Below are positions 127-61,862 of a stretch of 64,000 nt of DNA, piece by piece. The notes under the pieces were generated by a model. That model was not told the origin of the DNA, ran no database searches, and saw only the letters and a list, made by a program, of their open reading frames with translations. The DNA lies in the NCBI GenBank assembly GCA_001887945.1, contig LDOQ01000129.1, forward strand, positions 1-64,000. The letters are read 5' to 3'. Every line of letters begins with the position of its first letter. The stretch's first letter is position 1. This DNA comes from Spraguea lophii. Lineage: Eukaryota; Microsporidia; Spragueidae. A program made the translations under genes and the position numbers.

Positions 127-827
127 CATGAATCTTTTTAAAAATAACAAATAAATAATATTCATTTTTCACATGATTTTATAAATATATATATTACTAT
201 ATATATCACCCGTTTGAAATTTATTTTTAAACGTTCCACATCCTTTTATATTTTGTATATGTTTTATTATAATATGAATTTTAATGAATGATTTATTTTA
301 TAATGTATAAACACATTTACAATGATAAATATAAGATTTCTATTAATTTTATATTATGTCTTCTTTGTTAATACATTTATAATTCTTTGAATAATATTTT
401 TTTTATATTCTTAAATAAAAACAAAATATCTATGTATGTTGCCTCTGTTGTTTTTTTTAATAATATTTTATCTTTATTAAAGTTTCTTTTAGAAACCATA
501 GATTTATCATTGTAATATATTTACATAAACAATAATTTTTTTTGTGAATTAATCATTTCTATTACACGAAACTTTTCATTTAAATATGATAATATTTCTT
601 ATAAATTTCCTAGTAAAATATATTATATATATATTCTTATTACTTATATGATTATGATTAAAGAATAACTGTGAAATATTTCAAAATTGGTATTTTATGA
701 ATATATAACAATCATGTTTCATATTTATCGTTATTTCACCTAACCTATATTTTTTTTTATATTCTGAATATAAATTACATAAAATTTTTATGTTTCTTTC
801 ATATTAAATATGCTCTATTTTTTTAAT
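127..827. other. AT-rich intergenic DNA, nothing recognised
   Basis: Extremely AT-rich sequence with stops in all frames. I see no coding stretch, tRNA or start motif. Confidence 0.5.
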
Positions 828-985
828 AATACTTTTATTTATCGAAATTTCCTAGTTATTGTGGTTTATTATAATTAGTTCCTGAGACACATTTAAACTT
901 GCACTAATTGATATTGGTACAGATATGCATTCTCATATTATTTTATATTCCAGAACGTTAAGATTTTGTGTATGTAAAATACATT
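828..985 (-). repeat. SINE-like repeat, partial decayed copy
   Basis: This matches the 3' tail half of the dispersed SINE-like family on the minus strand. The plus strand reads tttatttatcgaaatttcc, then the conserved blocks 'gttcctgag...tttaaacttg', 'acagatatgcat' and 'ccagaacgttaagattttg'. The tRNA-like head is missing. Confidence 0.6.
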
Positions 986-2425: not shown

Positions 2426-3139
2426 TACATAGTTTTTATCTAAACATTTATAAACTGGTTATATGACCAAATAGGAATACATGTTCTTAAAAAGTAATAC
2501 AAATTTATAAATATATATATTTGCTTAACGAATACAAAACAGAAATTTTTGTATATTTTAATAATATATTTTATTTTTGACAGGAATAGAAAATATTCTT
2601 AATTAAGATAAATAAGACAACAAAATAAAATATATAATTTTCTGTTTAATAAAGTTTCTTAAAAATTAGAAATATTTTTAAGGAGTTAATATATAATATA
2701 TATAGTTAATTTTTCATTGTTGTAAACATTTTTACGAAATTTAAATAAATATTTTAATGAATAATATTCAAACAAAATATTTTTTATTTATATTTAAACA
2801 ATTAGGCCTTCTTTTTGTGTAAGATTTTTATTTATCAATGTTTATTATACTTGGTATATAACGTTTCCTTATTGAATAAAAAATATTTGAAAATATGATA
2901 TATGTTATTTTATTACAAAATATTTAAAGATAGAGAATTCTATATTTGTATATAATATAAAAATCATACATAAATTAATAAATAATAGGATATTTCCATC
3001 TTTAATACCTCAAACCAATTTCTTTAAACTGTTATTGTTTTATTCTTGAATCATAAATGAATAGCTAAATATTTTAAATATGAAATATCTAATACAAGAT
3101 ATTTCATCAAGTTTGAAAAACTTGTATTTTTTAATGAAC
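2426..3139. other. AT-rich intergenic region upstream of the HAD gene
   Basis: No open frame or start motif is recognisable. The part next to 2425 must hold the promoter of the minus-strand HAD gene, but no CCC-type signal is visible. Confidence 0.4.
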
Positions 3140-3566
3140 CCTTTATTTATAGAAGTTTCCTAATCGGCTGTGGCTTACCATGGTCTATGACCTTGGTTTT
3201 TGGATTTTTAAATTATGCTAACTGATTTCACTACAGATATACTTAATCTCATCGTATCTTATGTTTAAAACGTTAGAATTTTGCGCATGTGCAATCATCA
3301 TCCTTATTTTATTAAATTCCGATATTCTTCTCGCCATAATATCGGCCGAGTCACAAATCAATACAAGGATAGACATTAAAAACTAAACACCACTTTAATT
3401 TAGCAGTAGACCGTTGTATAAGGTATGCCAATATTACACTATCTCCTCACCCAATCAGCAATTTTTCTCTTCTTTTCTCCTACTTTTTCTTGAAAATTCT
3501 TCGGAATGAGGAATTCAAACCCGCAGACTTAAGATTTGGTTATCACTACACAACCACTCAGCTAAG
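3140..3566 (-). repeat. SINE-like repeat, near full length
   Basis: A minus-strand copy of the dispersed family. The tail is at 3140 (tttatttatagaagtttcct). The middle carries 'gagtcacaaatcaatacaaggat' at about 3350, and the decayed tRNA-like head is at about 3500-3566. The B-box site (minus GGTTTGAATTC) is one change from consensus. Confidence 0.75.
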
Positions 3567-4017
3567 TAAGTTTGATGATTATTTGATGAGAACATGATTC
3601 AACTTTGATTAAATCAACATTAAACAATAAAAATTAATTTTTACGTCAAATGATAGTTATTAATAATCAATCAGTTTTGACTTTTTTCATATTTTATTTT
3701 CGAATTTTATTGGTTTTCAAAACATCAATTTTGAAAAATACCTTTACCTATTAATTCAATTAAAAGGAAATAATATTAAAATTACCATTTAAATAAATAG
3801 TTACAATACAAATTATCCTTAGATATAATAATATATAATTATGGGAATAAAAATATTTTATACGAAATTGAAGATTGAAATTAGAATATTTTTTCTAAAA
3901 AAATTAATAAAATTTTCTAAACAAAAAAATAATTATTTATCTATCACATAATGTTTTATTGGTTTTAAAATAAACCAATTATTATCAATCAAAAGAATAA
4001 TTAAACATCATAACATA
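3567..4017. other. AT-rich spacer upstream of the SMP gene
   Basis: No gene is seen. This region carries the promoter of the gene starting at 4026. Confidence 0.4.
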
Positions 4018-6954: not shown

Positions 6955-7475
6955 GATTGAACTTAACCCTGGTGAATTGGAGATGCTTGGTATTGATGAT
7001 CATATATATATAACAGAAAGAATATCGAACATTGAGGAAAAAAATGTATAGAAGATAACTTTATAATATATAAATTTAATGAATACAGAAATCCAAAACA
7101 AAAAATTAACAAATATTTAAAACCAGAAGATTATCTTAATATTTTTTCATGTGACAAAATAACTAATTTTATCATTAATTTAATTAATAAAAATTTTGGA
7201 AGAAAGAAAAAACTATTGAACTATTAATTATAGGAGAATTAAGAAAGTATTTGCCATTCATATTAGAATGGAGATGATAAAATCGACAAATTATAAGAAA
7301 TGTTGGTCAATTAAAAACCCCCTTTTTTAAAATAATGAACTTTCACGTCATCGGAAAGATTTATAGAAATAAATTCAAAATAGAATTATATTGGATATAA
7401 TAAAAAAATTACAAACGAACCGAAAATTTTTGAACTTATTAATGATAAATTTAAAGAACGTATAGATTTTTTTTG
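6955..7475 (+). pseudogene. Decayed coding relic of unknown identity
   Basis: The plus strand shows coding-like pieces in shifting frames: 'IELNPGELEMLGIDDH' from about 6958, 'DNFIIYKFNEYRNPKQK' from about 7053, and 'IIGELRKYLPFILEWR' from about 7230. Frameshifts and stops separate them. The charged, non-repetitive composition differs from surrounding junk. I do not recognise the family. Confidence 0.4.
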
Positions 7476-7480
7476 TTAAT

Positions 7481-7862
7481 GAAACTTTTATTTATCGAAA
7501 TTCCCTGACCGAATGCGGTTTACCGTAGTCTATGACTTTTGGTTCCTGAAGCACCTTTAAGCTTGTACTAACCGGCTTCACTACCGATATGCATTAATCT
7601 CGTCTTATTTTATGTTCCAGAGTGTTAGGATTTTGCATATGGTGCACATCGCTGCTGCTCCACAGTTGTTTAGAGATTCCTAACCTCTTCCTTGGCATAA
7701 AAATAGCGAGTCACAAACCAATACAGGGATTGCAATTACACCAGTTAAATACTATTTTAATCTAGTAGTGGAACCGTCATACAAGGCATAACTAATGTTA
7801 CCCTATCGAACCCTCACACACTCAACAACCTTTCTCTTCTGCCTCTTATTATTATTTTTTAA
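7481..7862 (-). repeat. SINE-like repeat, head truncated
   Basis: A well-preserved minus-strand copy from the tail at 7481 through the conserved middle ('gagtcacaaaccaatacagg' at about 7710). It stops in the pyrimidine/TTATTATT tract before the tRNA-like head. The break abuts the integrase relic. Confidence 0.75.
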
Positions 7863-8850
7863 TGATATTTGTGAGTTACAATCATTATCTATCCTTTTAA
7901 TATAGTCCTCCCTCACAAAGGGAAATTCGCTATAAAACAATTATGTGTTTTTATTGTTACATTGGATTGTTATAGTATTTTCTACCTGTTGGTTGCGGAA
8001 TAATCCGAATATATTTTTTAATATTGTAGAATGAATAGTTTTGTTGTAATTAAATGTAATTTTAGTAAGATATTTGTGCCAATTATTCTTATTATCTGTA
8101 AATGTTTCCTTACTTATTATTCTTGTTAATGTTTGATTAAAACGTTCAATCTATTCCTGCGCTTGATGATGTCTGAGTCTGCCAAACATGTGTAAAATTT
8201 TGCAGTGTTTGCATAATCCTTTTATATGATGGATTTTAAATCCAATTCGTTATCACTTCGTATTATATATAATGTTCCATTTAAATAAAATGAGTTCTCT
8301 AAAGATTAAATAACAGATTCAACTTTTTTGTTTTTTAATAGATAACAAAAAGGTAAATTTAGTGCAAATATCAACAATTGTTAAAATATATGCATATTCT
8401 TCTTCATTATTACTATATTTTCTTAAATCTATCAAAGCGATTTATATTTTTTCGAAAGATTTGTTAAATTTAATGTGTTAAGGTTTTTCTTTTGCTTTAA
8501 AAGGTAATGGTTGTTGACGAGTAATATACTCTTCTATAATACTTTATTTTAATTTTAAAGAATTTCCTATTTGCTAAGTGTTATAACCTATTTACACCAA
8601 GGGTGTCTTCATATAATTTTATAATCTTCAATTTTGCTGTTTCTATAAATTTATCAGGTATGACTTTAAGTGATCTTTTATCGTTTATAAGGTATGTATA
8701 TTGTCCATTCATCTGAAATACCGGCTTTTTTTAACTAATATTTGACATCTTTGTTTATCTTGTTGACTTCTTTTGTTTTCAAACATTGTAAAATAATGCT
8801 CAACTCATTTTCGTCTTTTATTCTTCTTTTATACGTATGGATAGGATTGT
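7863..8850 (-). pseudogene. Degenerate Ty3/KRBA2-type integrase relic
   Basis: Conceptual translation of the minus strand, with several frame changes, gives the integrase hallmarks in order: a 'LGVN...LANRKFFKIKIKYY' zinc-domain remnant near 8600-8550; 'YILTIVDICTKFTFLLSI', the first catalytic Asp block, near 8400; 'IIRSDNELDLKS' near 8265; and 'GRLRHHQAQE.IERFNQTL', a corrupted H-P-Q-S-Q-G-Q-x-E-R-F-N block, near 8160. It is a dead mobile-element fragment from an LTR retrotransposon or an integrase-derived transposon. Confidence 0.65.
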
Positions 8851-12079: not shown

Positions 12080-12310
12080 ATTCCTAGCTGATTGTAATTA
12101 ATCATGATGTTTGTGAGTGTGGTTCATGAATTCACTAGAGAGTTTACTTACGAGACTCATAATAGGTGCATCAACTCCATCTTATATTATACTTTAGAAT
12201 GTTAAGGTTAACGTATGATGAATATCGATATGTTATCTCGGTTTATATGAGATTATTAATTTATTTTTGTTACACGATATTGGTTGAGCTAATAATAAAT
12301 ATACAATTTT
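12080..12310 (-). repeat. SINE-like repeat, highly decayed copy
   Basis: Weak but ordered matches to the dispersed family: 'ttcctagctgattgtaattaatcatg', 'aggtgcatcaactccatcttatattatactttagaatgttaagg'. A 94-codon open frame across it is accidental. Confidence 0.45.
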
Positions 12311-26324: not shown

Positions 26325-26360
26325 ATTTATTTATATTTATAATAAATATTTATTATTACA

Positions 26361-26651: not shown

Positions 26652-26791
26652 AGGGGTAATATTCTATTAATAATAGATATGATATATGTATTATAAGGAT
26701 ATGATATATACATATAACAGAATATGTTATAATAATATTAATATATCATATGCATTATACCATACATCTATCATACTCTTATACATATATA

Positions 26792-34129: not shown

Positions 34130-34981
34130 ATGTTTATTTTTATATTCATTATTGAATTATTATGTAAAGAGTTCTATTTGATGACTGGCGATGGTAATTA
34201 TATGTTTCGTAAGGATGGTATTAGGAATGTTACTATTACTGAAAAGATATCTGAGGCTGATAAATTTGATATTATACAAACAACGTTGAGTTATATGTAT
34301 ACTAAGATTGTTGTTAAGACTCAAGATAATTTATATTGGGATATTTCTGCTAATAAAACAAATTTACACTATTGGCATAAGGATTTGAAAAAGGAGCAGC
34401 AGTTCTTTTTTATTGTATATTTGGAAAATGGTGAGGTAGGTGTTTTAAATGCAAATATGCAGTGTTTGGCGTATAAACCGGCTTTGAAGATTTTTCAAAG
34501 GGAAAATTGTATGTTGAGATTGGATGTGAATCATAGATTTAAAATGGTTTATGTGGATGAGGTAGATATGAAAGATAAAATGGAAATGTTGGAAAGTGGA
34601 AATAACCGTTTATTAGATAAGAATAAAATGTTAGGTGATGAAAATATTTTATTAAAAAAAGAAAATAATGTGGAAAGAAATGAAGATATTGACAGAAGAT
34701 TATATAATATGTTGAAAGATATGTTAGATAGGGAGATTTCAGGAGATAAAGATGTAAAAGATGCTGTTAGGAAAGTCGATGAGTATATTCATTCTGATGA
34801 ACGTGATACACCAGAAAGTATTATTAATAAAATAGTTGCAGTGAAGAAGTTTAAAGATGAAAGGAAAACCAATCATGTTTGTAGGTTGGATGATCGTGAA
34901 GTAGTAGATGATGGTATAATGAAGTTATCAACTCATAATAACCATCATAAAAAACATGCTCATAATAACCATGATGGTTAA
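34130..34981 (+). CDS. Secreted ricin-B-lectin-like (beta-trefoil) protein 1, with coiled coil and His-rich tail
   Basis: A 283-residue protein. I start it at 34130, which gives a clean signal peptide ('FIFIFIIELLC') followed immediately by the 'KEFYLM' seen in its paralogues; upstream in-frame codons are repeat-derived. Residues about 12-150 form one beta-trefoil-like module with 'YWDISANKTNLHYWHKD', a diagnostic shared motif, and 'MQCLAYK'. A charged coiled coil follows (about 155-200), then a helical region, and the protein ends in a His/Asn/Lys-rich stretch. Ricin-B-type domains bind sugars and in microsporidia such proteins are associated with spores or adhesion. No toxic catalytic domain is present. 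No CCC motif precedes the start. First of four tandem paralogues. Confidence 0.75.
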   Translation: MFIFIFIIELLCKEFYLMTGDGNYMFRKDGIRNVTITEKISEADKFDIIQTTLSYMYTKIVVKTQDNLYWDISANKTNLHYWHKDLKKEQQFFFIVYLENGEVGVLNANMQCLAYKPALKIFQRENCMLRLDVNHRFKMVYVDEVDMKDKMEMLESGNNRLLDKNKMLGDENILLKKENNVERNEDIDRRLYNMLKDMLDREISGDKDVKDAVRKVDEYIHSDERDTPESIINKIVAVKKFKDERKTNHVCRLDDREVVDDGIMKLSTHNNHHKKHAHNNHDG

Positions 34982-35344
34982 AGCAATAAAAATAATTATT
35001 GACTACTTTTTTTAAATATTTTAAAATAAATGGTTTTCTAAAAATTATTATATAAACATTAAATAGAAATATAATAAATGTTATTGATATAAAATAATTA
35101 TAATATCTTATATTGTGTATATATTAATTTATAATACAATTTATTTATTATCTGTTTTATTTAATAAGATAATAACCAATATAAACCATTGATGAAATAT
35201 TAAAAAGTTTTAGAATATAAAATATATTTTATAAATAAAATAAATTTATTATAAATTGAAAATTAACATCTTTGATATAGATAAGAAATACATTTAAATA
35301 AATATTATGGATTTTTAACATAAGCCTTCAATTTTTAAAACAAA
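34982..35344. other. AT-rich spacer in the lectin-like array
   Basis: No feature recognised. Confidence 0.4.
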
Positions 35345-35710
35345 TTGTTCAAAGGCGAATAATGACTTGACTAATAAGTGAACAAAATTTCGATAATGTA
35401 ACATTAGTTGTATTGGTATTATAATCTCATTATTAGATTAAAGTAGTATTTAGTTAGTGAAGTTACAACACCTGTATTGATATGTGATTTAGACATATTA
35501 TATAAATAAGAAAGAGATCAAACCTTGTTAAGGATGATAGAATGATGATTACATTATACACAAAGTTCCAATGTTCTAGTGTATAAGGTATAATGTGATT
35601 AGTGCATATCTGTAACAAATCGGTTTACAAGTTTAAATAAATTTTAAGAACCAAAGGTCTTAAATTAAAATAGACTGTATCCAGCCAGAAAACTGCTATA
35701 AATAAATTTT
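35345..35710 (+). repeat. SINE-like repeat, decayed copy inside the lectin-like array
   Basis: Plus-strand orientation, opposite to most copies. Ordered matches include 'aacaccatgtattgat'-like sequence at about 35470, 'caaagttccaatgttctagtg', 'gcatatctgtaacaaatcggtttacaagtt', 'gaaccaaaggtc' and the tail 'ccagccagaaaactgctataaataa'. The head is unrecognisable. Confidence 0.65.
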
Positions 35711-36308
35711 TATAAAAAAATAACAATTAAATATTATTAAAAAATACCTTAGAAAACATCATTATTCTCAAATTAAAAGTAAAATAAATAATATTTATTT
35801 ATTGCTTATTGGATTAATGATTACAATTCTGTTTATAATTGGAATTATAATCGTTGATTTTTTAAAAAATATATATAAGAAATTATTATTAATTGGTTGC
35901 ATATTTTAACAAATCTAAATAAAATTTTATACCAATTGAAATTATATTAACTAAGATTTTATTATTTGGTAATTTTCTACAAATCATTTTGTTTTTTAAA
36001 AATGATATAACATAATTAAAAATTCTAGATTTATATTATAAAAATAAATATAATTATTATAATTAAATATACAATAAATCATTTTATTTTAATTTTTTTA
36101 TATAAAATAAAATATCATATCATAAATTATTATTTGTTTTTATAAAAAAAAGTAGTGATAAAATAGGTAATTTTTTATTTGTGTTTTTAATATCATGATA
36201 TAAATAATCCTATTATTGAATATTTTTATAAAAATAAAATGATCTATATGTCAATTTATATTCGTGTTTGATATATATATTTATAAGTAATAAAAAAATA
36301 TTATTATT
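35711..36308. other. AT-rich promoter region of lectin-like gene 2
   Basis: No C-run start motif is present before 36309. Nothing else recognised. Confidence 0.4.
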
Positions 36309-37007
36309 ATGTTTCTTCTATTCTCTGTTATTCTTTGTAGTAAATTCTATTTTTTAATGTATGATGGTGTTTCTTATATGGAAGGAGTAAATGGAAGTAA
36401 TGTAAGAACAACGAAAAATAAAAATAATGCAGATATTTTTAGAATAGAATATAGAAACGATTCTTTAACACATCAAATAATACGTGTTGTAACAAAACAG
36501 AATATTATGTGGGATATAGCAGCTAATAAAACAAATTTACATTATTGGAGAAATGATAGTTATTCAGGACAGCAATATTTTCAGATAATAAATCTTCCAT
36601 TGAATCAGGTGGGTGTAATAACAGGCAATGGATATTGTTTGGAATATAAATCACAGCAAAATATTTTTCAGAGAGAACCATGTAATCTAAGTAATAATAA
36701 ATTTCAAAGATTTATGATGTTATTTATTGAAGATGAACTAATGCTTAAATTTGGATCTAATTACATCGAGAAACTTAAATTAGAAAACAAAAAACTTAAA
36801 TTAGAGAATGATAACTTGTTACACGATTTATCTTCTATGGAAGAACATCTGGGTTATGATTTTGATAATAATAGTGATTGTAGTACAACATGTAATGAAC
36901 ATAAAATTATAAATAGTTTTAAAGGAGGAAACAATATGTATGGTAGTTTATTTACACCTAATACAATTTCACCGGGATATTTTCAGGCCTTTAATTATAG
37001 AAGATAA
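36309..37007 (+). CDS. Secreted ricin-B-lectin-like (beta-trefoil) protein 2
   Basis: A 232-residue protein. The signal peptide 'FLLFSVILC' leads straight into 'SKFYFLMYDGVSYMEG'. The beta-trefoil-like module covers about 11-145 and includes 'IMWDIAANKTNLHYWRND', 'QQYFQIINLPLNQVGVITG' and 'GYCLEYKSQQNIFQREPC'. A short helical repeat 'LKLENKKLKLEND' and a tail follow. It is closest to paralogue 3, with which it shares 'NADIF-IEYR' and 'INLP'. No CCC motif before the ATG. A secreted role at the host interface or spore surface is inferred from the family and signal peptide. Confidence 0.85.
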   Translation: MFLLFSVILCSKFYFLMYDGVSYMEGVNGSNVRTTKNKNNADIFRIEYRNDSLTHQIIRVVTKQNIMWDIAANKTNLHYWRNDSYSGQQYFQIINLPLNQVGVITGNGYCLEYKSQQNIFQREPCNLSNNKFQRFMMLFIEDELMLKFGSNYIEKLKLENKKLKLENDNLLHDLSSMEEHLGYDFDNNSDCSTTCNEHKIINSFKGGNNMYGSLFTPNTISPGYFQAFNYRR

Positions 37008-37536
37008 AAATTTTTAATAATAAATATTTTGTAATGTTTTAATCTTTGTAATTCATAAAATTATTTGATTTTAATTTTGTTTTAAAAAAAGAATAAGCGT
37101 ATTTTCAAATGTAATTATTGACATAAAAATTTTAATATCCAGATACATTATTATATCCCAATTTATTAAAGAAATCCTAACAATTTTTATATTCAAAAAT
37201 AATAATATTTTTTATTTGCATATCTGAAGAATAAATACAGGTTACAAAATAATCAATAATTTTATAAATATTTTATGTTTATTTGTCGTATTTAAAATAT
37301 TATATAATTTTATGATATCAGATGATTTTAGCTGTTATTCTTAAAGATTAAAATTTGTTACTTCAAATTTAAAAAAATTATACGCTATTTTATTGATGAA
37401 ACCTATCCCTTTTTATTATTCAAAAATATCAATTGGTTTTACATTTATACCTTCACTGATTTTTGTAAAAAATAACATTTGTATTATCTGTCAAATATCC
37501 ATTTCTAAGTATTTAAGCTCTTCACAATTATGTTTT
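37008..37536. other. AT-rich spacer and promoter of lectin-like gene 3
   Basis: An in-frame ATG at 37393 precedes the chosen start, but it would bury the signal peptide behind 48 residues not shared with paralogues. Confidence 0.5.
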
Positions 37537-38178
37537 ATGTTATTTTTTCTTTCTTTTGTGTTTTGTAGAAAATTTTATTTACAGGTAAATGAAGGTATGG
37601 GTTATTTATTAGGACATAATGGTACGCGTGTTAGGACCACTATCGATATAAATAATGCAGATATATTTGAAATAGAATATAGAAAAGATTCAGAAAGTTT
37701 CCAGGTTGTACGCGTAAGAACACAAAACAACATTGCATTGGATATAGCTGGTAATAAAACAGATTTACACTATTGGAATACTGATGTTCCTGACCAGCAG
37801 TTCTTCCACGTTATAAATCTTCCAGATGAAAAAATTGGTGTAGTAAGTGGTGATGGAAGATGTTTGGAATATAACAAAGATGCAGATTATTTCTATAGAA
37901 CTAAATGTGATTTTACTAAAAATGTACAAATATTTAATATGGTTTACGTTGATGAAGCCAATGGGTTGAAAAAAATGGGTTTGAATGATGATTTATTAGG
38001 TGAAAAATTAAGACAATTAAAATATAATAACCTCGCACGTAGTCTAAGTCTTCCAAATGCACTAAGTAATCAAGCCCAAGATAGTAAAAGTAGTATGTCT
38101 TATAGCAGAAGAGTTACTACGAGTAGTGCGAATCCTTCAAGTTATTCATCCCGTAGAACTTATTCTACCACATTTTAA
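37537..38178 (+). CDS. Secreted ricin-B-lectin-like (beta-trefoil) protein 3
   Basis: A 213-residue protein from the chosen start, whose signal peptide 'LFFLSFVFC' aligns with that of paralogue 2 and runs into 'RKFYLQVNEGMGYLLG'. The trefoil-like region carries 'ALDIAGNKTDLHYWNTD', 'QQFFHVINLPDEKIGVVSG' and 'GRCLEYNKDADYFYRTKC'. The C-terminal ~45 residues are Ser/Thr/Arg-rich and could be glycosylated or disordered. Likely arose by tandem duplication with paralogue 2. No CCC start motif. Confidence 0.82.
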   Translation: MLFFLSFVFCRKFYLQVNEGMGYLLGHNGTRVRTTIDINNADIFEIEYRKDSESFQVVRVRTQNNIALDIAGNKTDLHYWNTDVPDQQFFHVINLPDEKIGVVSGDGRCLEYNKDADYFYRTKCDFTKNVQIFNMVYVDEANGLKKMGLNDDLLGEKLRQLKYNNLARSLSLPNALSNQAQDSKSSMSYSRRVTTSSANPSSYSSRRTYSTTF

Positions 38179-38940
38179 TAATATTCTAAAAGAAATATTT
38201 AAATATTGAAGTAAAAGTAATAAAAATAGTCTATAAAAATTCATTTTAATTTTTATTATATTCATATACACATTTTCAACTGTTTTTAACAATTTTTAAT
38301 TTCAATAAAATATATTTTTTATAAAGAAATAAAATATTGAATATTTAAACATATTACTTGGAATCGATAATAAAAAATCTTTAGTTAATCATTTTTTCCT
38401 AGGATTATATGTTTAGTGGAATATAACTAATCGTCGCAATATGTTTTAAAAACAAATAAAATTACCATGAATCAACCATGTAATTTTACAAGAAGATTCA
38501 AATATATTTCATTCATCAATTCTTAATTGAAATTAACATTCTATTTTACAATATATCTAATAAAATATTATAATAAACTTTACAGACTGTAAACAAAAAG
38601 TATAATCATTTTCAAACATATAAGGTTTCATCAATTATAAGAAAATATGACATGTGATATTTATCATGTCATATATTTCCATAAGTGAGATATATGAAGT
38701 TGTTTTATATGTCAACATGAGAATATTTTTAACTAAATATAAATTTATTTATTAATATTATGATTTTTTATATTTCAATCAGATAATTTTGCTTGTTGTT
38801 TTAAAATACACCAATTTTTTAAAGAAATTAATTTTTATTTAGAAAATTTGAAAATTCAATCTTAGAATTTCATCATTATTAAAACAATGATAACGTTTTT
38901 TTAATATTTAAACTATAACAAAAAGGTTTTAATTTTATAT
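38179..38940. other. AT-rich spacer and promoter of lectin-like gene 4
   Basis: An inverted repeat lies near 38640-38690 ('gacatgtgatatttatcatgtcatat'). No gene or CCC motif seen. Confidence 0.4.
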
Positions 38941-39744
38941 ATGATCATATTTTTTACAGCAATAATGTGCAGAGATTTTCTTATTCGTTTAAAAGATAGA
39001 GGTTTATATGTTACAAGTAATGCATATGGTGAGCCAGCAAAATTCACAAGAGAGTCTTATTTAGCAGACGTATTCCAAATGGAGTTATCATTAAAGACGA
39101 ATGAATTTTTGATACATTCTAAAACTCAACATTCTTATTTAGAAATAGGAACCATATATAAGCAATTAATATATTACAACGGAGAAAACAATACTCCAAA
39201 CCAGAAATTTTCTTTACATTTGTTAGATGACGGCTCAGTTTCTATTAAGAATGGAAATTTATGTTGGATGTATTATAGATATACTGATACTATAACTCTT
39301 GAAAATTGTGATTTTAATAATATGGAAACTAAATTTGAAATATTATTTACAGACGACGTTGATAAGGATGAAGAAATTCAAATTTTAAAAGACAAAATAG
39401 CACAATTAGAAAAAATAAATACTGAAATTTATAAAGACGATCCTGTACAAATAGCAGAAATCATGGGTTTGAAAGATATGTTAGATAAAAATTTACAAGA
39501 AGATATTCTTAAAATTTCTTCAGATATAAGAAAGGAAAAGAATGAAAAAGAAAAAAAAGCTATTCTTGAAGCTTTAAATAAAAGAAATATTGGAACCAAT
39601 AATTTATTATCAAAGAATAGAATTCTATCAAATGATTATATTCGAAATAGATTACGTAATGGGATGAAGCTGAATCATAGACACCGCCATAAACACAGAC
39701 ATAGACGTGGACACAAACATCGCCATCTACATTCTATATTTTAA
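38941..39744 (+). CDS. Secreted beta-trefoil-like protein 4, divergent, with His/Arg-rich tail
   Basis: A 267-residue protein. The signal peptide 'IIFFTAIMC' precedes 'RDFLIRLKDRGLYVTSN', aligning with the other three. The motif seen as D-I-x-x-N-K-T-x-L-H-Y-W elsewhere is degenerate here ('YLEIGTIYKQLIYYNGE'), so this is the most diverged copy and sugar binding may have changed. A coiled coil ('EEIQILKDKIAQLEKIN') and a second helical region follow. The last 25 residues alternate His with Arg or Lys, a striking polycationic, possibly metal-binding tail. No CCC start motif. Confidence 0.75.
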   Translation: MIIFFTAIMCRDFLIRLKDRGLYVTSNAYGEPAKFTRESYLADVFQMELSLKTNEFLIHSKTQHSYLEIGTIYKQLIYYNGENNTPNQKFSLHLLDDGSVSIKNGNLCWMYYRYTDTITLENCDFNNMETKFEILFTDDVDKDEEIQILKDKIAQLEKINTEIYKDDPVQIAEIMGLKDMLDKNLQEDILKISSDIRKEKNEKEKKAILEALNKRNIGTNNLLSKNRILSNDYIRNRLRNGMKLNHRHRHKHRHRRGHKHRHLHSIF

Positions 39745-43211: not shown

Positions 43212-44579
43212 AATAAAAAATTTCGGGAAAATCTAAAATTTTATTATAATAAGTTTTAATCGTCCTTATAGTTAAACTCCTGTTTTTTATTTAGTTTTGA
43301 ATTTGCCTTTTTTATCCTTTACAAAGAAAAAAAGTAGTCATAAACATATATATTGTATTAAATGCAAATGTGATTACGAATATATAAAACATTAATTCTT
43401 TTAATTAAAGGATGGATTTTAAATTATAATTATTTAAATTATAAATTTTTTATCCGGGAGGTTTTTAATAAATTACATCCAAGGATTTTTATTTTTTACC
43501 AATTAAAATTTTTAAAAATAAAAAATTTTTTCATATAGCATATTTTCAAAATTTTTTAAGATAAATATAGGGAAATTCTAACATTTACAAAAAAAAGAAA
43601 TTTAATTGTTAAAAACTATATTTTTTAAATATCTAGGAAACTGAGAATTTGATTGAATATAATCAAACATATTAATTTATCATGAATAATGAAAACTCGT
43701 TATAACCTTTGAGTTAATGCTCACTGTATCCTGTTTACTTAATTCATCCTTTAAATAATTTAAATAAAAATGCGTTGATTATTATATCTTATCATTTCAA
43801 ACTATATTTCAATGTCATTTCCCATTATATTGTATCCAAACATCCATTTTTTAAAATAAAATTTTAGTTCTTTTTATGTTTTCCTTTCTTTTTTTGGTTC
43901 GTAACTTTTGTTATTTCAACAAGATTCTATTGCTGAGTATTTATTTTTATTTTAGGCCAAACATAATTTCTGCTATGGTCGATTGTATAATACTTCAAAA
44001 TGATTATTTCCGATATATTTCTATATCTATACTATTGATCACAATATATAATTGTTCCTTATTAACAAATTTCATCCATTATAGGAAATAATATTCCTCG
44101 CAATATATCATCGATAATACACACATAATAATCTTTACATGGTATTATATTTATTTCTAAGATTCCAAATATCCAAATTTCTTCATTGTTCACACAATCT
44201 CTATAATAAAGACATATAATGAAATATACTTTTATTTGTTTGCATTATGACACCCGTTTTACTCTATCGAATAACGGTGTTATATGTTTACCGAAACATC
44301 CGCAACCAATTTTTTTTTATTAAAATTTATAATAACAATGACATTGATTATCCAGAAGCAATATTTATTTCAAATTAAAAAACTATTTTAATTGTTTTTA
44401 AGACATTTTAAATTGTGCACGATTTCCACAAAATCAAAATTATGATCTTTTTAAAAAAATAATCTGAAATTACGTTCAAAACACCTCATTTAAATTTTGG
44501 ATTTTTTACTTTTATATAATCTTTTAGTTATCGCCAGTTTGCTTCTATTGTTTATGTGTTTATTTTTTGGGTCTAAAAA
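43212..44579. other. AT-rich intergenic DNA
   Basis: About 1.4 kb with stops in every frame. A short open frame at 43876-44091 has no support. This is the start of the repeat-rich third of the window. Confidence 0.4.
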
Positions 44580-45330
44580 GTTTCTTGAATGATTTATTTT
44601 ATAATGTCTACAATTTAAGTTTTACAGATCTTTATATCGTCTCTAATAATTTGTTATTGTTGTTGAATTTTTTTCAACGTGTGTTATAATAGTGTGTATC
44701 GGAAAATTTGCAATTACAAGATAATTGCCACATTAAAAAAACATTTTTGGTTATCTTATCGATATCTTTAATAACCCACATTTGTTTATTAAGTTTTCCA
44801 ACATTATACTTTCTTTTTGAAATAGCCGACTCATCTATTTCAACCTGTTTATTTTCATTACCTATCCTTCTATTTCTAATTATATATGTCTCGAAAATCG
44901 ATGTTATTGGTTTCAGATTATTAAATTATATTTCTACCTTTTCATTATATCTTTAAACTCTCTCTTTTGAATCCATTCATATATTATTCAATACATTACT
45001 AATTCTGACAAAATTAGTTTTTTATTAAATACATAGCCATGACATTTTAAAACAAACCCATTGTTACATTTACTTCTTACTATTTTCATATGATTTATAT
45101 ATGAAGAACATTTATGATTTCGTTTAAAGGTTCATAAATTCTATAAAAAAGAAATAGTTTTGCTCAGGCAATTTATTTTCTTTTCTAAATTTATTATGTT
45201 TCTTATTGTTATATTCATATTTAAAGGTTGTCTTAGAGGTAGTTAATATCCATTATTACCAAAGTTATTATTATATTTTTCTTACAACCGCTTAATTTTT
45301 TATATTTTCAATACCGAAATCTTGAACCAT
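44580..45330 (-). pseudogene. Degenerate IS1595/ISXO2 (Merlin) transposase
   Basis: The minus strand encodes 'QVEIDESAISKRKYNVGKL' (first catalytic Asp block) near 44870-44810, preceded by zinc-ribbon-like and helix-turn-helix pieces, and followed by 'NVFLMWQLSCNCKFSDTHY', matching 'FFDVTISRNAKFLRHT' of the copy at 54.1 kb. Frameshifts and stops are frequent and the last catalytic residues are not found. Confidence 0.7.
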
Positions 45331-45847
45331 ATGTATAATAATATAATCTTGAACAATACAATTCTTATTACTTCAATGTGGACTCATATTTTATAGATTT
45401 TATATTTATTTGATCAATCTGAAAAATAATACTTCCGCGTTGTTTATTATTTTTTCAATTCAATATTTTCTTCTCGTTTTTACATTTATTACAAATTACT
45501 TTTTGTTTCAGTATTTTTTTATTTCTCAAAATAAAAATATTTGCTCATCAATAAAAGAGTTTTATTACAGGTAATATTGTTGCTGATAAAATATTCATTG
45601 AAATAAAATCCTTTTTTTTCTACGCAGCTTATTAATTCTCAAAAGTAATTAATAATCTTTATCATCTTTTTAATAGTTCCAAATAAAAAATATTTGTATA
45701 AAATCTTTGTGGAATATTGACCGAAATATTTACATAGCGATATCTATATTGTTAACCATGGCCGTAAATATTGTCAGTATCCAATTAAATTTATATAGTT
45801 AAACCATTGAAATTTTTTGTTTCTAAAATTTCCCATTTTTAAAAAAT
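45331..45847. other. AT-rich DNA, nothing recognised
   Basis: No coding or repeat-family match. Confidence 0.4.
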
Positions 45848-46285
45848 TTTTATTTATAAGAGTTTTCTGGCCGGCTACAATTTGTTGCGGTTTATGATTT
45901 TTAACTTTACATTTAAATTTGTATTGATTGGTTTCGTTACAAATATCCATTGATTTCATTTTGTTTTATATTTTGAAGCGTTAAGATTTTTAGTATAGTA
46001 AAATCATCATTCCTTCTGTGTTTTAAAGACGCCCAACCTCTTTCCTGACATAGCACTAACTGAGTCACAAATTAATATAGGAATTACAATTACACCAGCT
46101 AAACACCTCTTTAATCTAATAGTTGGCTTGTTATGCAAGTCATAATTAATGCCACGTTATCGAATCTCACTCACCCCATTACCTTTTCCTTCGATTCTTT
46201 TGGAAATTCTTCGATGTGAAGAATTCGAACCTACTAAGCTTGGAAATTGGTTACCACCCCATGACCATCAACCAGCAATCTAATA
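45848..46285 (-). repeat. SINE-like repeat, near full length
   Basis: Minus-strand copy running from the tail (tttatttataagagttttctgg at 45849) to the tRNA-like head ending near 46283. 'gaattcgaacc' at 46221-46231 is the reverse complement of a B box with one change. 'gagtcacaaattaatatagg' marks the conserved middle. Confidence 0.8.
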
Positions 46286-46689
46286 AATTTGTATATTATT
46301 TTTTTTAGTATATGGCAATTATTTTTTTTTCATTTTTATACAACTTTTAATTATACAAAATTGCTAAAAATACATATCGTTATGAATAATTAACAAAACA
46401 ATATCATATATCGCGAAGATATTATTTTTATACAATAATTATTTAAATTTTTATGGCTTTTAATATATAAAAAGTTTAAGAAAATATTTTAATGAATAAA
46501 ATTAAAAAATAAAAAAGCATGAAGAAAACAAACATGTGATTTATAATGAATCTGAACATTCGGACATTGTGAAATATCAGTATTGCTAAACGAGGCCACG
46601 TAAATATAGTGTATATATTAATAACGAGGATTATATTATAGGTACAAAACCTCATACGAGATTACGTGATACAATTTTTTTTACTAATA
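46286..46689. other. AT-rich DNA between two SINE-like copies
   Basis: Nothing recognised apart from a poly-T tract. Confidence 0.4.
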
Positions 46690-47163
46690 AAACTTTTATT
46701 TATCAAAGTTTCCTGGCTGGTTGCGGCCTACCATGGTCTGTGACCTTCGGTTCCTCGAGCGAATTTAAGCTTGTACTAACTGGGTTCGCTACAGATATGC
46801 ATTAATCTCATTTTACCTTATGCTCCAGAGTGTTAGGATTTTGCGTATGGTGCGCGTCGCCGCCCCACTTCCAGCTCTTAAGGAATTCCCAGCCTCTTTC
46901 GTTGTATAATATTGGCCGAGTCACAAATCAATACAGGGATTGCAACTACATCAGCTGAACACTACTTTAATCTAGTAGCGGGGCCGTCACACAAGGCACA
47001 GCTATGCTGCGCTATCGAAACCTCACCCACTCAACAACCTTTTTCTTCTCTTCTCCGTTTATTATTATTATTATTTTTTTTGAAAATTTTTCTGGATGAG
47101 GGATTCGAACCCGCCAGGCTTGGGGTTTGGTTACCACCCCACGACCACTGGGCCAGGCGGGAT
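46690..47163 (-). repeat. SINE-like element, best-preserved copy with tRNA-derived head
   Basis: About 475 bp, minus strand. The 5' head (47163 down to about 47088) has an A-box match TGGCCCAGTGG (complement of 47145-47155) and a perfect B box GGTTCGAATCC (complement of 47101-47111), with about 33 bases between. The body is more GC-rich than the surroundings and matches all other copies. The 3' end (46690) reads AAATAAAAG. A 9-bp ATAAAACTT occurs at both edges (46687-46695 and 47162-47170), but the left one overlaps family consensus, so the target duplication is uncertain. Open frames crossing it are accidental. Confidence 0.85.
47088..47162 (-). promoter_or_regulatory. Internal Pol III promoter (A and B boxes) in tRNA-like head
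   Basis: The A box at 47145-47155 and B box at 47101-47111 (minus strand), with a GGGG/CCCC stem between them, give the layout of a type 2 Pol III promoter. The acceptor stem of a true tRNA is not conserved. Confidence 0.7.
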
Positions 47164-48794: not shown

Positions 48795-49080
48795 AAGTTT
48801 TATTCCCCTCTGGTGAAAATAAAAAAAAGTTGGATTTTACGCACCATAGATTGATAGATTAATATAATAAATCTTCGATTTTTCATATACTTCACGTATA
48901 AAAATCTACGTCGCTTTTCCTCTGCTAGTCTTAATCAAATTCATAGTTTTTTATAACATAATACCGACTGGATCGATAATCAATACAAAGTTAATCAAAC
49001 ATTGTTTTAATTTAATAACGAGAATATGTATAAGCAAGTAAATATTACATCATTGTTATCCAACTAATTTTGTATTTGGA
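48795..49080 (-). repeat. SINE-like repeat, decayed copy
   Basis: Weak ordered matches: 'aaagttttattcccctctgg' tail, 'ccgactggatcgataatcaatacaaag', 'attgttttaatttaataacg', 'aagcaagtaaatattacatcattg'. The head is lost. Confidence 0.5.
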
Positions 49081-50349: not shown

Positions 50350-50755
50350 TTGCCTATTTAACTATGTGGTCATGAGATGGTAATCAAATCTCAGACTTAA
50401 GGAGTTAGAATCACTCACCCGGAAGATTTTCAAAAAATAAAATAAAAAGCAGAAGAGAAAAGAAAAGACATTGAATGGATTGAGTTCGATAACATAACAT
50501 TAATTATGCCTTGTGCGGTGGACCCGCATCAGATTAAAATAGTGTTTAGCTGGTGTATTTTTCAATCCCTGTATTAATTTGTGACTTGGCCAGTATTATA
50601 CTAAGAAATAAATTATAATTCCATTAAAACAGATCGAATAATAATCGATCCATATACAAAGTCCAAATACGTGGGCATAAAATAAAATGAAACCAATCAA
50701 TACAAATTTAAATATGCCTTAATAACCAAAGATCGTAGACCGTTATGGCTGTGAG
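50350..50755 (+). repeat. SINE-like repeat, plus-strand copy
   Basis: Head at the left: 'ctatgtggtcatgagatggtaatcaaatctcagac' parallels the tRNA-like head of the 46.7-kb copy. Then come 'gccttgtgcggtggacccg', 'tcaatccctgtattaatttgtgacttggcc' and 'ataaccaaagatcgtagaccgttatggct'. The B box is degraded (gagttagaatcac). Confidence 0.75.
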
Positions 50756-50949
50756 ATATCTATATTGTATCCTTTTGAAACAAATTAAATTTTCTCCTCT
50801 TCTGATGGAAAACAAAAAAATATAAGAAAAATAATACACTTCTTTATCTTCATTTCTTAAAAAAACAACCAACGATAAGATAATATTTTAATAATGATGA
50901 ATCTTACACTCTTTTTTATATATTATTTAATTTTACATTATGTTTCTTC

Positions 50950-53529: not shown

Positions 53530-54532
53530 CATATATGGGGAATAATAAATATTAACTCCCCCAAAAAACAATCTTAAATTATGAATATAACAATAAAAAA
53601 CGGAATAGATCTAGAAAATAAGATAAATTGCTCAAGCAAATTTCTTTCTTTTTTTTGCGGAATATGGGTGTTCTTAAAGAAAATCACAAATATTCGTTGT
53701 GTAAAAGGTATATGAAAACAATAAAAAATAAGTGTAGCGATGGTTTTATTTGAAGTTGTCATGGTAAAAATGTAATAAAATGACAATTTCCGTAAGAATT
53801 GGAAGTTTATTGAGTAGGATTAAATTACCGTTAATTTCCATAATTCGTGTAATATATGAATAGTCTCAAAAGAGAAGTTTAAAAGACATAATGAAAAAGT
53901 AGGAATATCCTTTAATAGTTTGAAATCGGTATTATCAGTTTTTGAACGTTATATAAAAACCAAAGTAAAAAATAGGAGGTCAAGATAATAGGTTGAAATA
54001 GATGAATCACTATTTCAAAAAGAAATTATAATGTTAGAAGACTTAATAAACAAATCTAGGTTATTAGAAATATTGATAGAATAATTAAAAAAATGTTTTT
54101 TGATGTAACAATTTCAAGAAATGCAAAATTCTTGAGACATACAATTAAGAAACATGTTAAAGAAGGTTCAATAATAGTAACAGATTGTTGGAAAGGATAC
54201 AAAGACCTTCAAAATTTAAATTATAGGCATCATAAAATAAACCATTCTAAAAACTTTTTAGAGTTAATGAACAGGGAAATAAACACCCAAATAATCGAAT
54301 CAAATTGGAGATGGTTAAAAGAATATATAAAAATAAGAAACCCAAAGTCTAAACGAGGCGTTTTGGAAGTGATTTCAGAATATTTTTTTTAAAAGGATCA
54401 TAATTTCGATTTTGTGCAAATTTTGCTCGAGCTAAAATGCTTAAAAGGTCTTAAAAATAATTAAAATCCTCTTTTTATTTGAATTTAAGGCTGTTTTTTG
54501 GGGTCGTTAATATTCATTAATGCCCATATATG
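53530..54532 (+). mobile_element. Merlin/IS1595-type DNA transposon A with 8-bp target duplication
   Basis: Element 53538-54524 (987 bp). The left end GGGAATAATAAATATTAAC and the right end (complement) GGCATTAATGAATATTAAC, each continuing to CCCCAAAAAACA, give about 28 of 33 matching bases. It is flanked by an exact 8-bp duplication CATATATG (53530-53537 and 54525-54532). The duplication length is that expected for Merlin/IS1595-type elements. The single internal gene is a broken transposase. Confidence 0.85.
53590..54392 (+). pseudogene. Transposase of element A, frameshifted
   Basis: The last 99 codons (54093-54392) are open: 'MFFDVTISRNAKFLRHTIKKH', 'IIVTDCWKGYKDL' (second catalytic Asp), 'HHKINHSKNF', 'INTQIIESNWRWLKEYI' (final Glu in I-E-S-x-W) and 'ISEYFF' at the end. 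Upstream, 'VEIDES' (first Asp) at about 53994-54011 and the zinc/HTH half lie in other frames with stops. The intact family length is about 270-290 residues. Confidence 0.8.
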
Positions 54533-55424
54533 TTAGATTATAAATCTGATAATAATAACTTTGACATTTTTAACTTTGGGTATCCCGAAAAAACAATATT
54601 AAAAAAAGAACCCGTGACTATGTATAGACGTCAATTGAACTCAGTAATTTACTCACCGTGCAAAATTGTTGAATATCTACAGAACCTTGGTGTATTAAAA
54701 AAATCATTTAATTATAAAAAATGCAAAAAAAGAATGAATTTAGTGGCCGTCAAGAAGAATGACGGATATATTTGGAAGTGTATGATGAATAAATGCAAAA
54801 AACCAACCATTTCAATAAGAAAAGGTTCTGTTTTTTATAAAGTTAAAATAGAATTATCAAAAATTTTAGAAGTAATATACGAATGGATACAGAAAAGAAG
54901 CTTAAAAGAAATTAAAAAAGAAATAAATATAAGTTATAAAGGAATCAATACAATAATAAATTGTTTCAATTCAAAAAAACACGAATATTAATAACAACAA
55001 AATTGGAGGATATAATAAGTGGGTTGAAATAGACGAGAGCGCAGTATCTAGAAGAAAATATAATATCGGTAGACTAGTTAAGACGATATGGGTTGTTGGA
55101 GGAATAGAAAGAGGTTCTAATAATATGTTTTTTAGAGTTACCAAATCAAGAAATTCAGATTTCTTAAGAAGTACAATTAAAAAACATATCAAGTCCAAAT
55201 CAATCGTTGTCACTGATTGTTGGAAAGAATACGGAAATCTTGAATCACTCGACTTACAGCATTTTAAAATTAATCATTCGAAAAAATTTGTAGACCCTAC
55301 AAATAAACAAATACATACACAAACAATAGAATCTGTATGGAGATATCTAAAAGAATACATTAAAATTCGCAAACCAAAAAGCAAAAAATCTTTGATAAAA
55401 ATTATTGATCATTATTTTTTTTAA
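54530..55424 (+). pseudogene. Transposase of element B, one frameshift
   Basis: Two long open pieces. The first (in-element part about 54610-54991) has a zinc-ribbon/HTH half: 'KKCKKRMNLVAVKKNDGYIWKC', 'CKKPTISIRKGSVFY', 'EVIYEWIQKRSLKEIKKEINISYKG'. The second, from about 55015 to 55424, has 'KWVEIDESAVSRRKYNIGRL' (first Asp), 'IVVTDCWKEYGNLESL' (second Asp), 'KINHSKKFVDPTNK' and 'IHTQTIESVWRYLKEYI' (final Glu). Only a frameshift and stop near 54990-55015 separate them. The 5' ~15 codons of the first open frame lie outside the inverted repeat, so the true start is inside. Confidence 0.85.
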
Positions 55425-55562
55425 AAAAAATAATTTTAACTTTGAACAAGTCTTGCACGGTGTAGCCATAAAACAACATTAAATTAACTTATTTGGTACA
55501 TTTATTTTCGTTTTTTAACATTGTTTTTTCGGGATACCCAAAGTCAATAATCCCATAACTTT
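54555..55562 (+). mobile_element. Merlin/IS1595-type DNA transposon B with 8-bp target duplication
   Basis: Element 54563-55554 (992 bp) with 35-bp terminal inverted repeats. The inner 25 bp (54573-54597 versus 55520-55544) are identical and contain TTTGGGTATCCCGAAAAAAC. The outer 10 differ at four positions. An exact 8-bp duplication ATAACTTT flanks it (54555-54562 and 55555-55562). It lies 22 bases from element A's duplication. It is the youngest-looking element in the window. Confidence 0.9.
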
Positions 55563-58870: not shown

Positions 58871-59114
58871 AAATTCAAGTTTTTTTACTTACCAATCTCT
58901 TCTTTTAATAATACACTTTTGTGCCCATCTTAATAGTTCTTTTACTGAAATATCAGTAATAAATGAAAATTATAGACAAAACTACAATATGAGTATAATA
59001 AGAAATTTAGAGTCCAATTATAAAACAACGCGAACTATTAGAGAGAAAGAAGCTGTTAGTCTGCAGCAATCAAAATAATTATAACTACGGCCACTTATCT
59101 TAAGTTTACGATAT

Positions 59115-59300
59115 TTATAAGACATTATATATTAAACGACAGGATATTACGCTCCAGTAATCCTGATATTCAAAGTGACCATGGAACAAATTAAAAAACC
59201 GTAGTAAAATTTATATATCTCCAAGAACTAAAGGTCACAAACCATGGTAGGACGCAACTAGCCCGATCAAGATTTATTAATAGATTCCTTAGAAAAGCAG
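59115..59300 (+). repeat. SINE-like repeat, 3' fragment
   Basis: The tail region matches: 'gaactaaaggtcacaaaccatggtagg', 'gcaactagcccgatcaagatttattaatag', equal to the complement of the tail of the 46.7-kb copy. Confidence 0.6.
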
Positions 59301-60399
59301 ATTTATCAGATTGGAAGTTGAATTAAAGAATAAGAAAATATAATTAATAATGTTATAATAACAAAAACGTATCTTAAATAAATTTTCTTATGTTTTAAAA
59401 AAATAAACAACGAGTTTAATGTTGTTAAAAAAGATTTCGACATAAACATAAAAACACAGAAAAAATTTTTAGGAACCGTACACGAAAAAAACCCTTATTC
59501 CATAAAAGAAATAATTAATATAGGTTGATATTAAAAAACGATAAATATAAAATAACCATCTTAAATCTATCATAATATTTTGAACATATAATATGTAGTA
59601 AACATGTAATATCAATAACTTTAAAAAACATATTTCTTACTATAATTCCATGGATCAATTAGTCTAATTAACCAATCATAAGAAATTGAGGGTAAAATAA
59701 AAAAAAATTAAAAAATTAAAAAATAAAAAATATTATTTTTTTCGAAATATCTAAATAAAGCGGATAAAATGGATATATAAATAATATGTAAAACCAATCA
59801 ATAAACAGTATTCTGTTGTGTGTTTTTAAACATTTTATTAGTAACTATTATATATAATATCGATTCTTCATTGTAAAACAGGTTGTGGTATTCACTCTTT
59901 TTTATACCCATTCTCAAATAGCTGGTCTTTATGTTACTTTTCGTAGCTTATAATGTTATATTCAAGACCGACCAGTATATTATACGTAAAGAAGTCTTAT
60001 TTATTATAATTTACTAATTTTTATAAAAAAAGAAAAAGATTGAACAATATCATAAGAAAGAAATATTACCTTTTATAAAAAAGACAATAAAAGTTGTATT
60101 TTATGTAAATATTAAAATCGCCCTTCTTTCCCCTCCATCTTAGTACAAATATTGAATAGATTCTTAATCCCATGTGTTTTGAATGCATTATCATCGAATT
60201 AATTATTTTAGAAAAACTTACAAAACTTAAGAATCTTTTGAATAAAAAAGATGTAATTGCCCGTGACAATTATTATTATCTCGATTAAATTTATTTAATT
60301 TAAGTACTAAAATATTCGATCTATTTATTGTATTTCTACTAATATCAGTTGTTTTTTATAATATTGTCTTCTATGTCCCATCTATTTTTCAGAAATTCA
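59301..60399. other. AT-rich DNA, nothing reliable
   Basis: No gene is supported. Short open frames here look random. Fragments resembling transposase near 59480-59530 ('VHEKNPYSIKEIINIG') are too short to call. Confidence 0.35.
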
Positions 60400-61469: not shown

Positions 61470-61862
61470 TTTAATTTATAGAAACGAGTTCCCTAGAATA
61501 TGAAATAACAAACAAATACTATAATAGTTAATAACGATTATACACTATTTATTTTTTTCTATACATTGTAAAATGTAATGCAACTTGATTTTATGAAAAC
61601 TTAATTCTATAGAACATCATTGGCCAAATAACAAATCAATACAAAAATTATAACTACACCAATCAAACGCCATTTTAATCTACCAGTGTAACGTAATACA
61701 GATTATAACCAATGTTATGTTATCGCATCCTCATCAACGCAAACACATTTTTTCTTCTCTCTTCCGCTTTTTTTAAAAAATCCTTCGGTGTATAGGTTTT
61801 GAACCCACCCACCGGGCATTTAATTAACATTCTACAATTACTCAGCAAATGGGATTAAAATA
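61470..61862 (-). repeat. SINE-like repeat, internally decayed
   Basis: The tail at about 61470 ('atttatagaaacgagttccctag'), conserved middle at 61618-61720 ('ttggccaaataacaaatcaatac', 'gccattttaatctaccagtg') and head at about 61785-61860 ('gttttgaacccacccaccggg', 'aattactcagcaaatggg') are present. The segment between tail and middle is hard to align. Confidence 0.65.

Follow-up and report, generated by a model that had tools for sequence, protein, structure and literature searches.

The repeat at positions 46,690 to 47,163 belongs, with high probability, to a tRNA-type SINE family that has been mobilised in trans by a LINE of the APE type residing in this genome. The features that lead to this assignment are a 5′ end located at a tRNA-type promoter, an A-tail, target duplications assessed against a control, the lack of terminal inverted repeats, LTRs and open reading frames, and a 3′ end shared with the LINE. 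The SINE architecture that had been proposed in an earlier sequence-only reading of this DNA is supported by these same features.

The window, by which we mean the whole 64-kb stretch of DNA analysed, corresponds to positions 1 to 64000 of contig C5 in a genome of 5,273,041 bases (5.27 Mb) that is assembled in 73 contigs. The GC content of its 2-kb blocks ranges from 18 to 31%, and that of the SINE consensus is 47%. The earlier attribution of the DNA to a microsporidian is consistent with a comparison of the CCT-delta chaperonin encoded in the window, in which the 7,997 candidates with the most words in common were scored. The best named relative was Astathelohania contejeani (48%), and the best 120 matches also included Encephalitozoon, Ordospora, Gurleya, Binucleata, Conglomerata and Nosema, together with many animals and some fungi. 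A microsporidian that has no close named relative in the database is thus likely. When a microsporidian SSU rRNA model was compared with this assembly, no match was found among the 5 of 45 candidates that were scored. The following features were recognised in the window.

46675..47163, minus strand: flagged SINE copy, including an 8-nt A-tail at 46675-46682 (genome search and profile)
47145..47155, minus strand: A box at consensus position 9, TGGCCCAGTGG, in the Pol III-type head
47101..47111, minus strand: B box at consensus position 53, GGTTCGAATCC, 44 nt from the start of the A box
46711..46765, minus strand: putative LINE-derived block in the 3′ part of the SINE, consensus ~401-455 (limits approximate)
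46682..46702, minus strand: terminal motif ATAAATAAAA.TTT.ATT..TA before the A-tail, common to the LINE 3′ end (limits approximate)
7472..7874, minus strand: older SINE copy, 22% off the consensus, 5′-truncated, with A-tail (profile)
3128..3567, minus strand: older SINE copy, 29% off the consensus (profile)
45840..46273, minus strand: older SINE copy, 35% off the consensus (profile)
50354..50772, plus strand: older SINE copy, 36% off the consensus (profile)
35377..35711, plus strand: older SINE copy, 38% off the consensus, 5′-truncated (profile)
61606..61853, minus strand: older SINE copy, 40% off the consensus, without the 3′ part (profile)
823..974, minus strand: SINE 3′ fragment (profile)
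48877..49022, minus strand: possible decayed SINE fragment (iterated profile, weak, E 6e-4)
12081..12225, minus strand: possible decayed SINE fragment (iterated profile, weak, E 6e-3)
59041..59406, plus strand: 3′ end of the probable partner LINE, 5′-truncated (71% to a LINE copy, E 6e-41)

With the flagged stretch as a DNA query against the whole genome, 45 matches were obtained (40 of 429 first-look candidates were scored), and at least 39 further near-full copies of the repeat were found elsewhere in the genome. The 40 near-full copies considered below are the best matches, picked as being near full length and fetched with ~300 nt of flanking sequence. Aligned over their whole length, they deviate from the majority consensus by 0.41-3.32%; the SINE consensus is 484 nt long. 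Their common start adjoins the A box and reads GTC in 35 of the 40 copies and ATC, TTC, TAC or AAC in the other five, which deviate in the first two bases only. All 40 share the 3′ terminus ...ATTCGTA followed by A's; after ATT, 31 of them read CGTAAAAA and the rest are slightly different. The A-tails vary in length, and some are interrupted by a T.

Comparison of the 5′ flank with the stretch after the tail revealed an exact target duplication of 10-17 nt in 36 of the 40 copies, whereas mismatched flank pairings, which served as the control, gave 10 nt or more in only 15 of 1560 cases, with a maximum of 12. The copies without an exact duplication of 10 nt or more were the flagged copy (0), L037 (0), L047 (0) and L038 (7); by eye, L037 and L038 seem to have duplications containing a mismatch. 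The flagged copy had been presented as the best one, a description that has to be given up: among the 40 copies it has diverged furthest (3.3%), and it is one of the three without any exact target duplication of at least 7 nt. An apparent 9-nt duplication at this copy, AAGTTTTAT, was rejected, because it belongs to the element's own 3′ end. No terminal inverted repeat was found in the SINE, and no LTR, in that the first and last 200 nt share no exact direct repeat longer than 7 nt. The longest ATG frame in any of the six frames of the consensus has only 26 codons, in agreement with the earlier statement that the repeat has no coding capacity.

Could the repeat belong to another class of mobile element? 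A MITE, that is, a non-autonomous DNA transposon, might carry box-like sequences by chance, and the window does contain repeated frames at 54.1-55.4 kb that look transposase-like by motif. DNA transposons are also described as abundant in some microsporidia (PMC4202319). However, the ends of the SINE contradict such an origin, as they form no terminal inverted repeat; its A-tails and duplications are variable in length, and 5′-truncated copies exist. We therefore consider a MITE extremely improbable. The repeat might also represent a fragment of an LTR element, a non-autonomous LTR element or a solo LTR, for example one like Helenus or Ajax, which are reportedly small-RNA-derived LTR groups. 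Ty3-type elements are present in the genome (C73, with related frames on C44, C48 and C56), but the ends of the repeat, which show neither an exact direct repeat of more than 7 nt nor a terminal inverted repeat, and its duplications of 10-17 nt plus an A-tail leave this explanation with almost no credibility.

In the head of the SINE, the A box lies at consensus position 9 and the B box at position 53, and both boxes, as claimed earlier, are also found in the flagged copy. The distance from the T of the A box to the G of GTTC (in GTTCGA) is 45 nt, the value met most often (18 of 47) among those predicted tRNAs of the organism in which both boxes were recognised. The head was then compared with 43 distinct predicted tRNA sequences, representing 51 of 57 loci and including one tRNA-Lys(ttt) artefact. 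It scored 43 against tRNA-Arg(tcg) and 40 against tRNA-Leu(tag), while the best scores of 200 shuffled heads against the tRNAs had a 95th percentile of 30 and a maximum of 39. A 60-point match to 'tRNA-Lys(ttt)' was discarded, because this ARAGORN prediction has a 2,902-nt 'intron' at locus L062 that engulfs an old SINE. ARAGORN itself predicted no tRNA in the head. In an Rfam search at E ≤ 10 the tRNA model was not listed, although the match to tmRNA, a model of the same clan, could mask a weak one; the head had only sub-threshold Rfam matches, the strongest relevant one being a 13-nt tmRNA match of 9.7 bits at the B box. On folding, the head formed a long hairpin rather than a cloverleaf and was no more stable than shuffles (z -0.83). 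The box geometry and the scores above those of shuffled heads, taken together with the lack of an ARAGORN or Rfam call, support a putative tRNA-type promoter with tRNA geometry. That the head is tRNA-derived, as claimed earlier, is compatible with the box spacing and with the two similarity scores, both above the shuffle maximum; the comparison singled out no one parent tRNA.

The sequences at which Pol III transcription might end were also compared. Within 30 nt 3′ of the tRNA genes, a run of at least four T's is present in all 51 genes read and a run of at least five in 47 of them. The longest run in the SINE consensus is one T4, at positions 78-81; among the 40 copies, the longest run is 4 in 35, 3 in four and 5 in one. 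The difference between the T5 or longer run behind most tRNA genes and the single T4 of the SINE suggests that Pol III read-through of the element is possible, and the T4 could act as a weak Pol III stop.

How widespread is the family? A 21-mer across the B box had at least 171 matches in the genome and a 25-mer at the 3′ end at least 175, each with up to 3 mismatches. Both counts are lower bounds for the family, with places listed for 100 of each, and the reversed-pattern controls for the head and tail words gave 0 matches each. The SINE 3′ motif is found at position 96 or 97 (96-121) of contigs C15, C25, C54, C56, C58 and C60, and minus-strand SINE heads lie near position 300 in C3, C19, C35, C36, C46 and C48. 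Because several contigs begin inside SINE copies, it is probable that these copies have broken the assembly and that the family is larger than counted. Exact SINE patterns had 0 matches in viral contigs and 0 in bacterial and archaeal genome contigs, so no relative was seen there.

The family is old and has recently been amplified. The young copies stand within 3.3% of the consensus, and the six long older copies of the window lie 22-40% away from it, which bears out the very different ages noted in the sequence-only reading. Copy L038 is nested in a SINE copy of greater age: when its two flanks are joined, the SINE consensus can be aligned to them across the junction. The count of 12 copies in the window, in contrast, was overstated. 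A profile built from the 40 copies recovered eight firm ones in its first round at E ≤ 3e-11 (at 46.7, 7.5, 3.1, 45.8, 50.4, 35.4, 61.6 and 0.8 kb). The ninth match, at 59.2 kb (E 9.5e-7), covers consensus positions 389-481 only, and the copy listed at 59.1 kb was rejected, as it is part of the LINE 3′ fragment. Two others, at 12.1 and 48.8 kb, are weak: the first-round profile gave E 0.07 at 12.2 kb, and both were retained through an iterated profile to which seven older copies had been added, so that the scores of those seven rise by construction. The copy listed at 40.4 kb was lost, since the matches of the iterated profile at 40.6-40.9 kb (E 0.9 and 1.3) are at the level of the best match in the reversed window (E 1.4).

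We also considered that the repeat might be a multicopy non-coding RNA gene with a tRNA-like promoter, or the retropseudogenes of such a gene, rather than a selfish SINE. No Rfam family fits the repeat, which leaves room for an undescribed RNA gene, and the body is recognisable in both old and young copies. Set against this are the at least 170 near-identical matches spread over the contigs, the target duplications and the 3′ end shared with a LINE, and we judge an RNA gene to be very unlikely.

The RVT_1 profile had nine matches in the genome. Contig C73 is Ty3-like by its aspartyl protease, RT and RNase H matches, and the RT matches on C44, C48:16630 and C56 are LTR-type, being similar to the C73 and C44 frames. 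Both matches on C2 belong to a single telomerase frame, identified by its RNA-binding domain, and the match at C5:73895 is similar to none of the other RT types. The LINE type is represented by C72 and the decayed C48:24138. The C72 frame (C72:3-1439) comprises 479 aa and is open to the contig end. Its Pfam matches are below the cut-off (PF14529 endonuclease-reverse transcriptase, E 0.002; RVT_1, E 0.002), and its comparison with the RT of human L1 ORF2p gave E 1e-9. It is similar to 20 proteins, mostly unnamed, the named ones being from Acanthocheilonema, Smittium and Strigamia, and it has relatives at C48, C21 and C1. No intact LINE was found in the assembly, from which the element is known as fragments.

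A LINE 3′ query from C21 matched 15 other LINE 3′ pieces, most of them 81-92% identical; at ~339-394 of the same query, 24 SINE copies were among the matches listed (84-86%). The block common to LINE and SINE is 55 nt long (84%, E 2.7e-9); this identity of the SINE 3′ block to the LINE 3′ UTR was measured on SINE copies other than the flagged one. Past the block, the LINE continues for ~130 nt to CATAAATAAAATTTTCTTATG-(TTT)A(n), and 13 of the 15 aligned LINE 3′ pieces reach the tail. The SINE end is GATAAATAAAAGTTTCATTCG-TA(n); 16 of 21 positions are identical between the two ends, and among the 127,958 21-mers on the two strands of the window, 11 do as well against the LINE end. Approximately 100 nt of the LINE 3′ UTR, between the block and the terminus, are absent from the SINE.

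Folding yielded one and the same pair of hairpins for the LINE and SINE 3′ pieces. Compared with 200 shuffles each, the 80-nt SINE tail surpassed every one of them in its fold and the LINE block surpassed 193. In the common hairpins, 86% of cells pair, as against 43% or less when the alignment is slid. Letter shuffles, however, reached the observed covariation in 99 of 500 cases and the percentage paired in 192 of 500, so that neither exceeds this control; covariation was therefore dropped as proof of the common hairpins. Eight 5′-truncated LINE 3′ pieces were inspected for duplications. In six of them a word of 8-22 nt from the flank recurs behind the tail; some of these words contain A's of the tail, and the mismatched-pairing control covers the SINE copies only. 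The shortest of these words belongs to the LINE piece of the window, and two of the eight pieces have no word of 8 nt or more. The search for a LINE with the same 3′ end thus yielded, through the 55-nt block and the terminal motif, an APE-type LINE that is the probable partner of the SINE.

It might be argued that the LINE and the SINE each captured the 3′ block independently and that another reverse transcriptase moves the SINE. Most of the LINE 3′ pieces are fragments with 81-92% identity to the query copy, while the young SINEs are about 3.3% or less off their consensus; no LINE was recovered intact, and the longest LINE frame breaks off where its contig ends. On the other hand, the two elements have the same terminal motif, A-tail and style of duplication, and the nine RVT_1 matches comprise four LTR-type, two telomerase, two of this LINE type and one, C5:73895, unclassified. 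We regard independent capture as unlikely, although it carries more weight than the other alternatives discussed above.

If the SINE is mobilised by this LINE, its cycle can be outlined. Pol III would transcribe the SINE from the internal A and B boxes, and the predicted transcript would begin at GTCCCGCC. The 3′ end of this RNA, made up of the 55-nt hairpin-rich block, the terminal ATAAATAAAA.TTTC motif and the A-tail, matches the LINE 3′ UTR and, judging from the sequence in common, may be recognised by the LINE reverse transcriptase. Insertion by target-primed reverse transcription would then produce the A-tail and the target duplications of 10-17 nt, marks that are seen in the copies.

Some SINE copies lie directly behind tRNA genes. 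The tRNA model identified 57 genes, of which 51 were read: 30 together with flanks of 1.5 kb, another 20 with ~35-60 nt and one, located in the window, with ~100 nt. The flanks amount to 45,837 nt downstream and 45,196 nt upstream; the SINE profile had 13 matches in them, and in the reversed flanks 0. Behind five of the 51 genes (Lys-TTT, Asn-GTT, Ala-TGC, Leu-TAA and Ile-AAT; profile matches at loci L059, L064, L072, L087 and L100), a SINE in the same orientation begins 7-16 nt downstream; the Ile-AAT case is a short, weak match of 42 profile positions (E 0.0016) that is truncated where the sequence read ends. Of the other eight matches, five lie at distances of 159-853 nt, one is a further part of the Asn copy, and two are SINEs that lie 70 and 79 nt upstream and point the opposite way. 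Given how dense SINEs are in these flanks, ~0.06 tRNA genes with such a SINE would be expected. The Poisson P is 7e-9 for the five cases and 6e-7 if four are counted, and with the density tripled it is 4e-5 for four, for a class (within 20 nt, same orientation) that was chosen post hoc, after the data had been seen.

At tRNA-Ala(TGC), the flanks joined after removal of the SINE and one ATATTTTT copy align over ~30 nt with the downstream flank of a SINE-free paralogue, and the SINE there therefore entered an existing terminator. The tRNA-linked copies that were measured (the Asn pieces, Ala, Leu and Lys) are 9-38% from the young consensus. We tentatively suggest, with less than even confidence, that the SINE or an older subfamily had a preference for integrating just past tRNA-gene terminators, always pointing the same way; an older subfamily may have had this habit, or the SINEs may be found there because selection tolerates them at such sites. 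A general clustering of young SINEs near tRNA genes was considered and dropped, as young heads lie within 100 nt of 2 of the 57 genes (expected 0.73, P 0.17), in a test that used 100 of the at least 171 heads, one of which is the Asn copy; the signal is limited to same-orientation starts at 7-16 nt downstream. A tie between LINE insertions and tRNA genes was likewise dropped, because ARAGORN predicted no tRNA at 23 LINE loci, several of them overlapping. Both results speak against a targeting of tRNA genes. At L062, a decayed tRNA-Lys-like sequence directly before a SINE looks, by eye, like a sixth case. The Asn-linked SINE is interrupted after ~99 nt by an insertion of ~1.3 kb (L064:1683-2968) that by eye resembles the mariner/Tc1 type.

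Retrotransposons that settle beside tRNA genes are known from Dictyostelium, also in a compact genome, where TRE3 is found at ~100 bp downstream and TRE5 at ~50 bp upstream of tRNA genes (PMC5006619). Preferred distances may be common to both cases, but here the element is a SINE, it lies 7-16 nt downstream, and a minority of copies is involved. If our suggestion is true, Pol III genes provide a SINE of the Pol III type with safe places to land in the compact genome of a parasite, and the tRNA-terminator insertions make this idea testable.

As a kind of element, the SINE is ordinary. tRNA-related SINEs consist of a tRNA-type head, an unrelated body and a LINE-shared 3′ end, and have target duplications and an A-rich tail, all of which are found here. 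The present family differs from them in its host phylum, in its length, 484 nt being long for a SINE, and in the missing ~100 nt between the LINE block and the terminus. AfuSINE2 of Aspergillus fumigatus is said to exemplify fungal tRNA-related SINEs with target duplications of 4-14 bp; the two are alike as tRNA-related SINEs with target duplications, a likeness by description alone and between distant hosts. Microsporidia are a standard example of eukaryotic genome reduction. In this reduced genome, the SINE and its likely LINE partner have persisted and left relics of many ages, and SINE copies have been added recently. Young SINE copies, if they differ between isolates, could serve as strain markers.

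Within the phylum, LINE families have been reported in Anncaliia algerae and others (Parisot et al. 2014, PMC4202319) and non-LTR elements in Spraguea (PMC3749934); the available parts of these articles describe non-LTR retrotransposons and no SINE partner, and their main text, as far as available, contains no word beginning with 'SINE'. The whole word 'SINE' is likewise absent from the accessible text of a further Spraguea paper (PMC4948709), and the accessible part of PMC6416283 names SINEs in general terms only. For Nosema bombycis, an unnamed 'SINE' class of 28,669 bp, or 0.18% of the genome, is given in the available part of PMC3614468. It shares label and phylum with the present family, whereas its structure, promoter, partner LINE and name are not given there. 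In the portions of the open-access literature covered, we came across no account of a microsporidian SINE that covers promoter, tail, duplications and partner, the N. bombycis class being the sole mention of one, in line with the sequence-only reading, which knew of no well-described tRNA-SINE family in microsporidia. As far as these searches show, and within the open-access literature, the family is new as a member of its kind and for its host.

Several other repeats and genes came to light. At the start of contig C21, locus L110 (C21:482-3586) holds a nest of LINE pieces, one of which apparently lies, by eye, inside the RT region of another; a short TTAGG run near the end of this stretch was also noticed by eye, and the locus could be subtelomeric. 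Another repeat family occurs in the window in both orientations, at 44369-45260 and 53538-55459 (67-72%), and contains two similar 99-aa frames, which, by motif, we take to resemble IS/Merlin-type transposases. Four adjacent frames of 232-370 aa at 33869-39744, alike by eye and with DNA repeats between them, are probably a local gene family. A series of long, repetitive, asparagine-rich frames of 830-1346 aa extends over 19792-33605 of the window, and the telomerase reverse transcriptase frame on C2 (locus L016; Telomerase_RBD, E 1e-15) is long and asparagine-rich as well.
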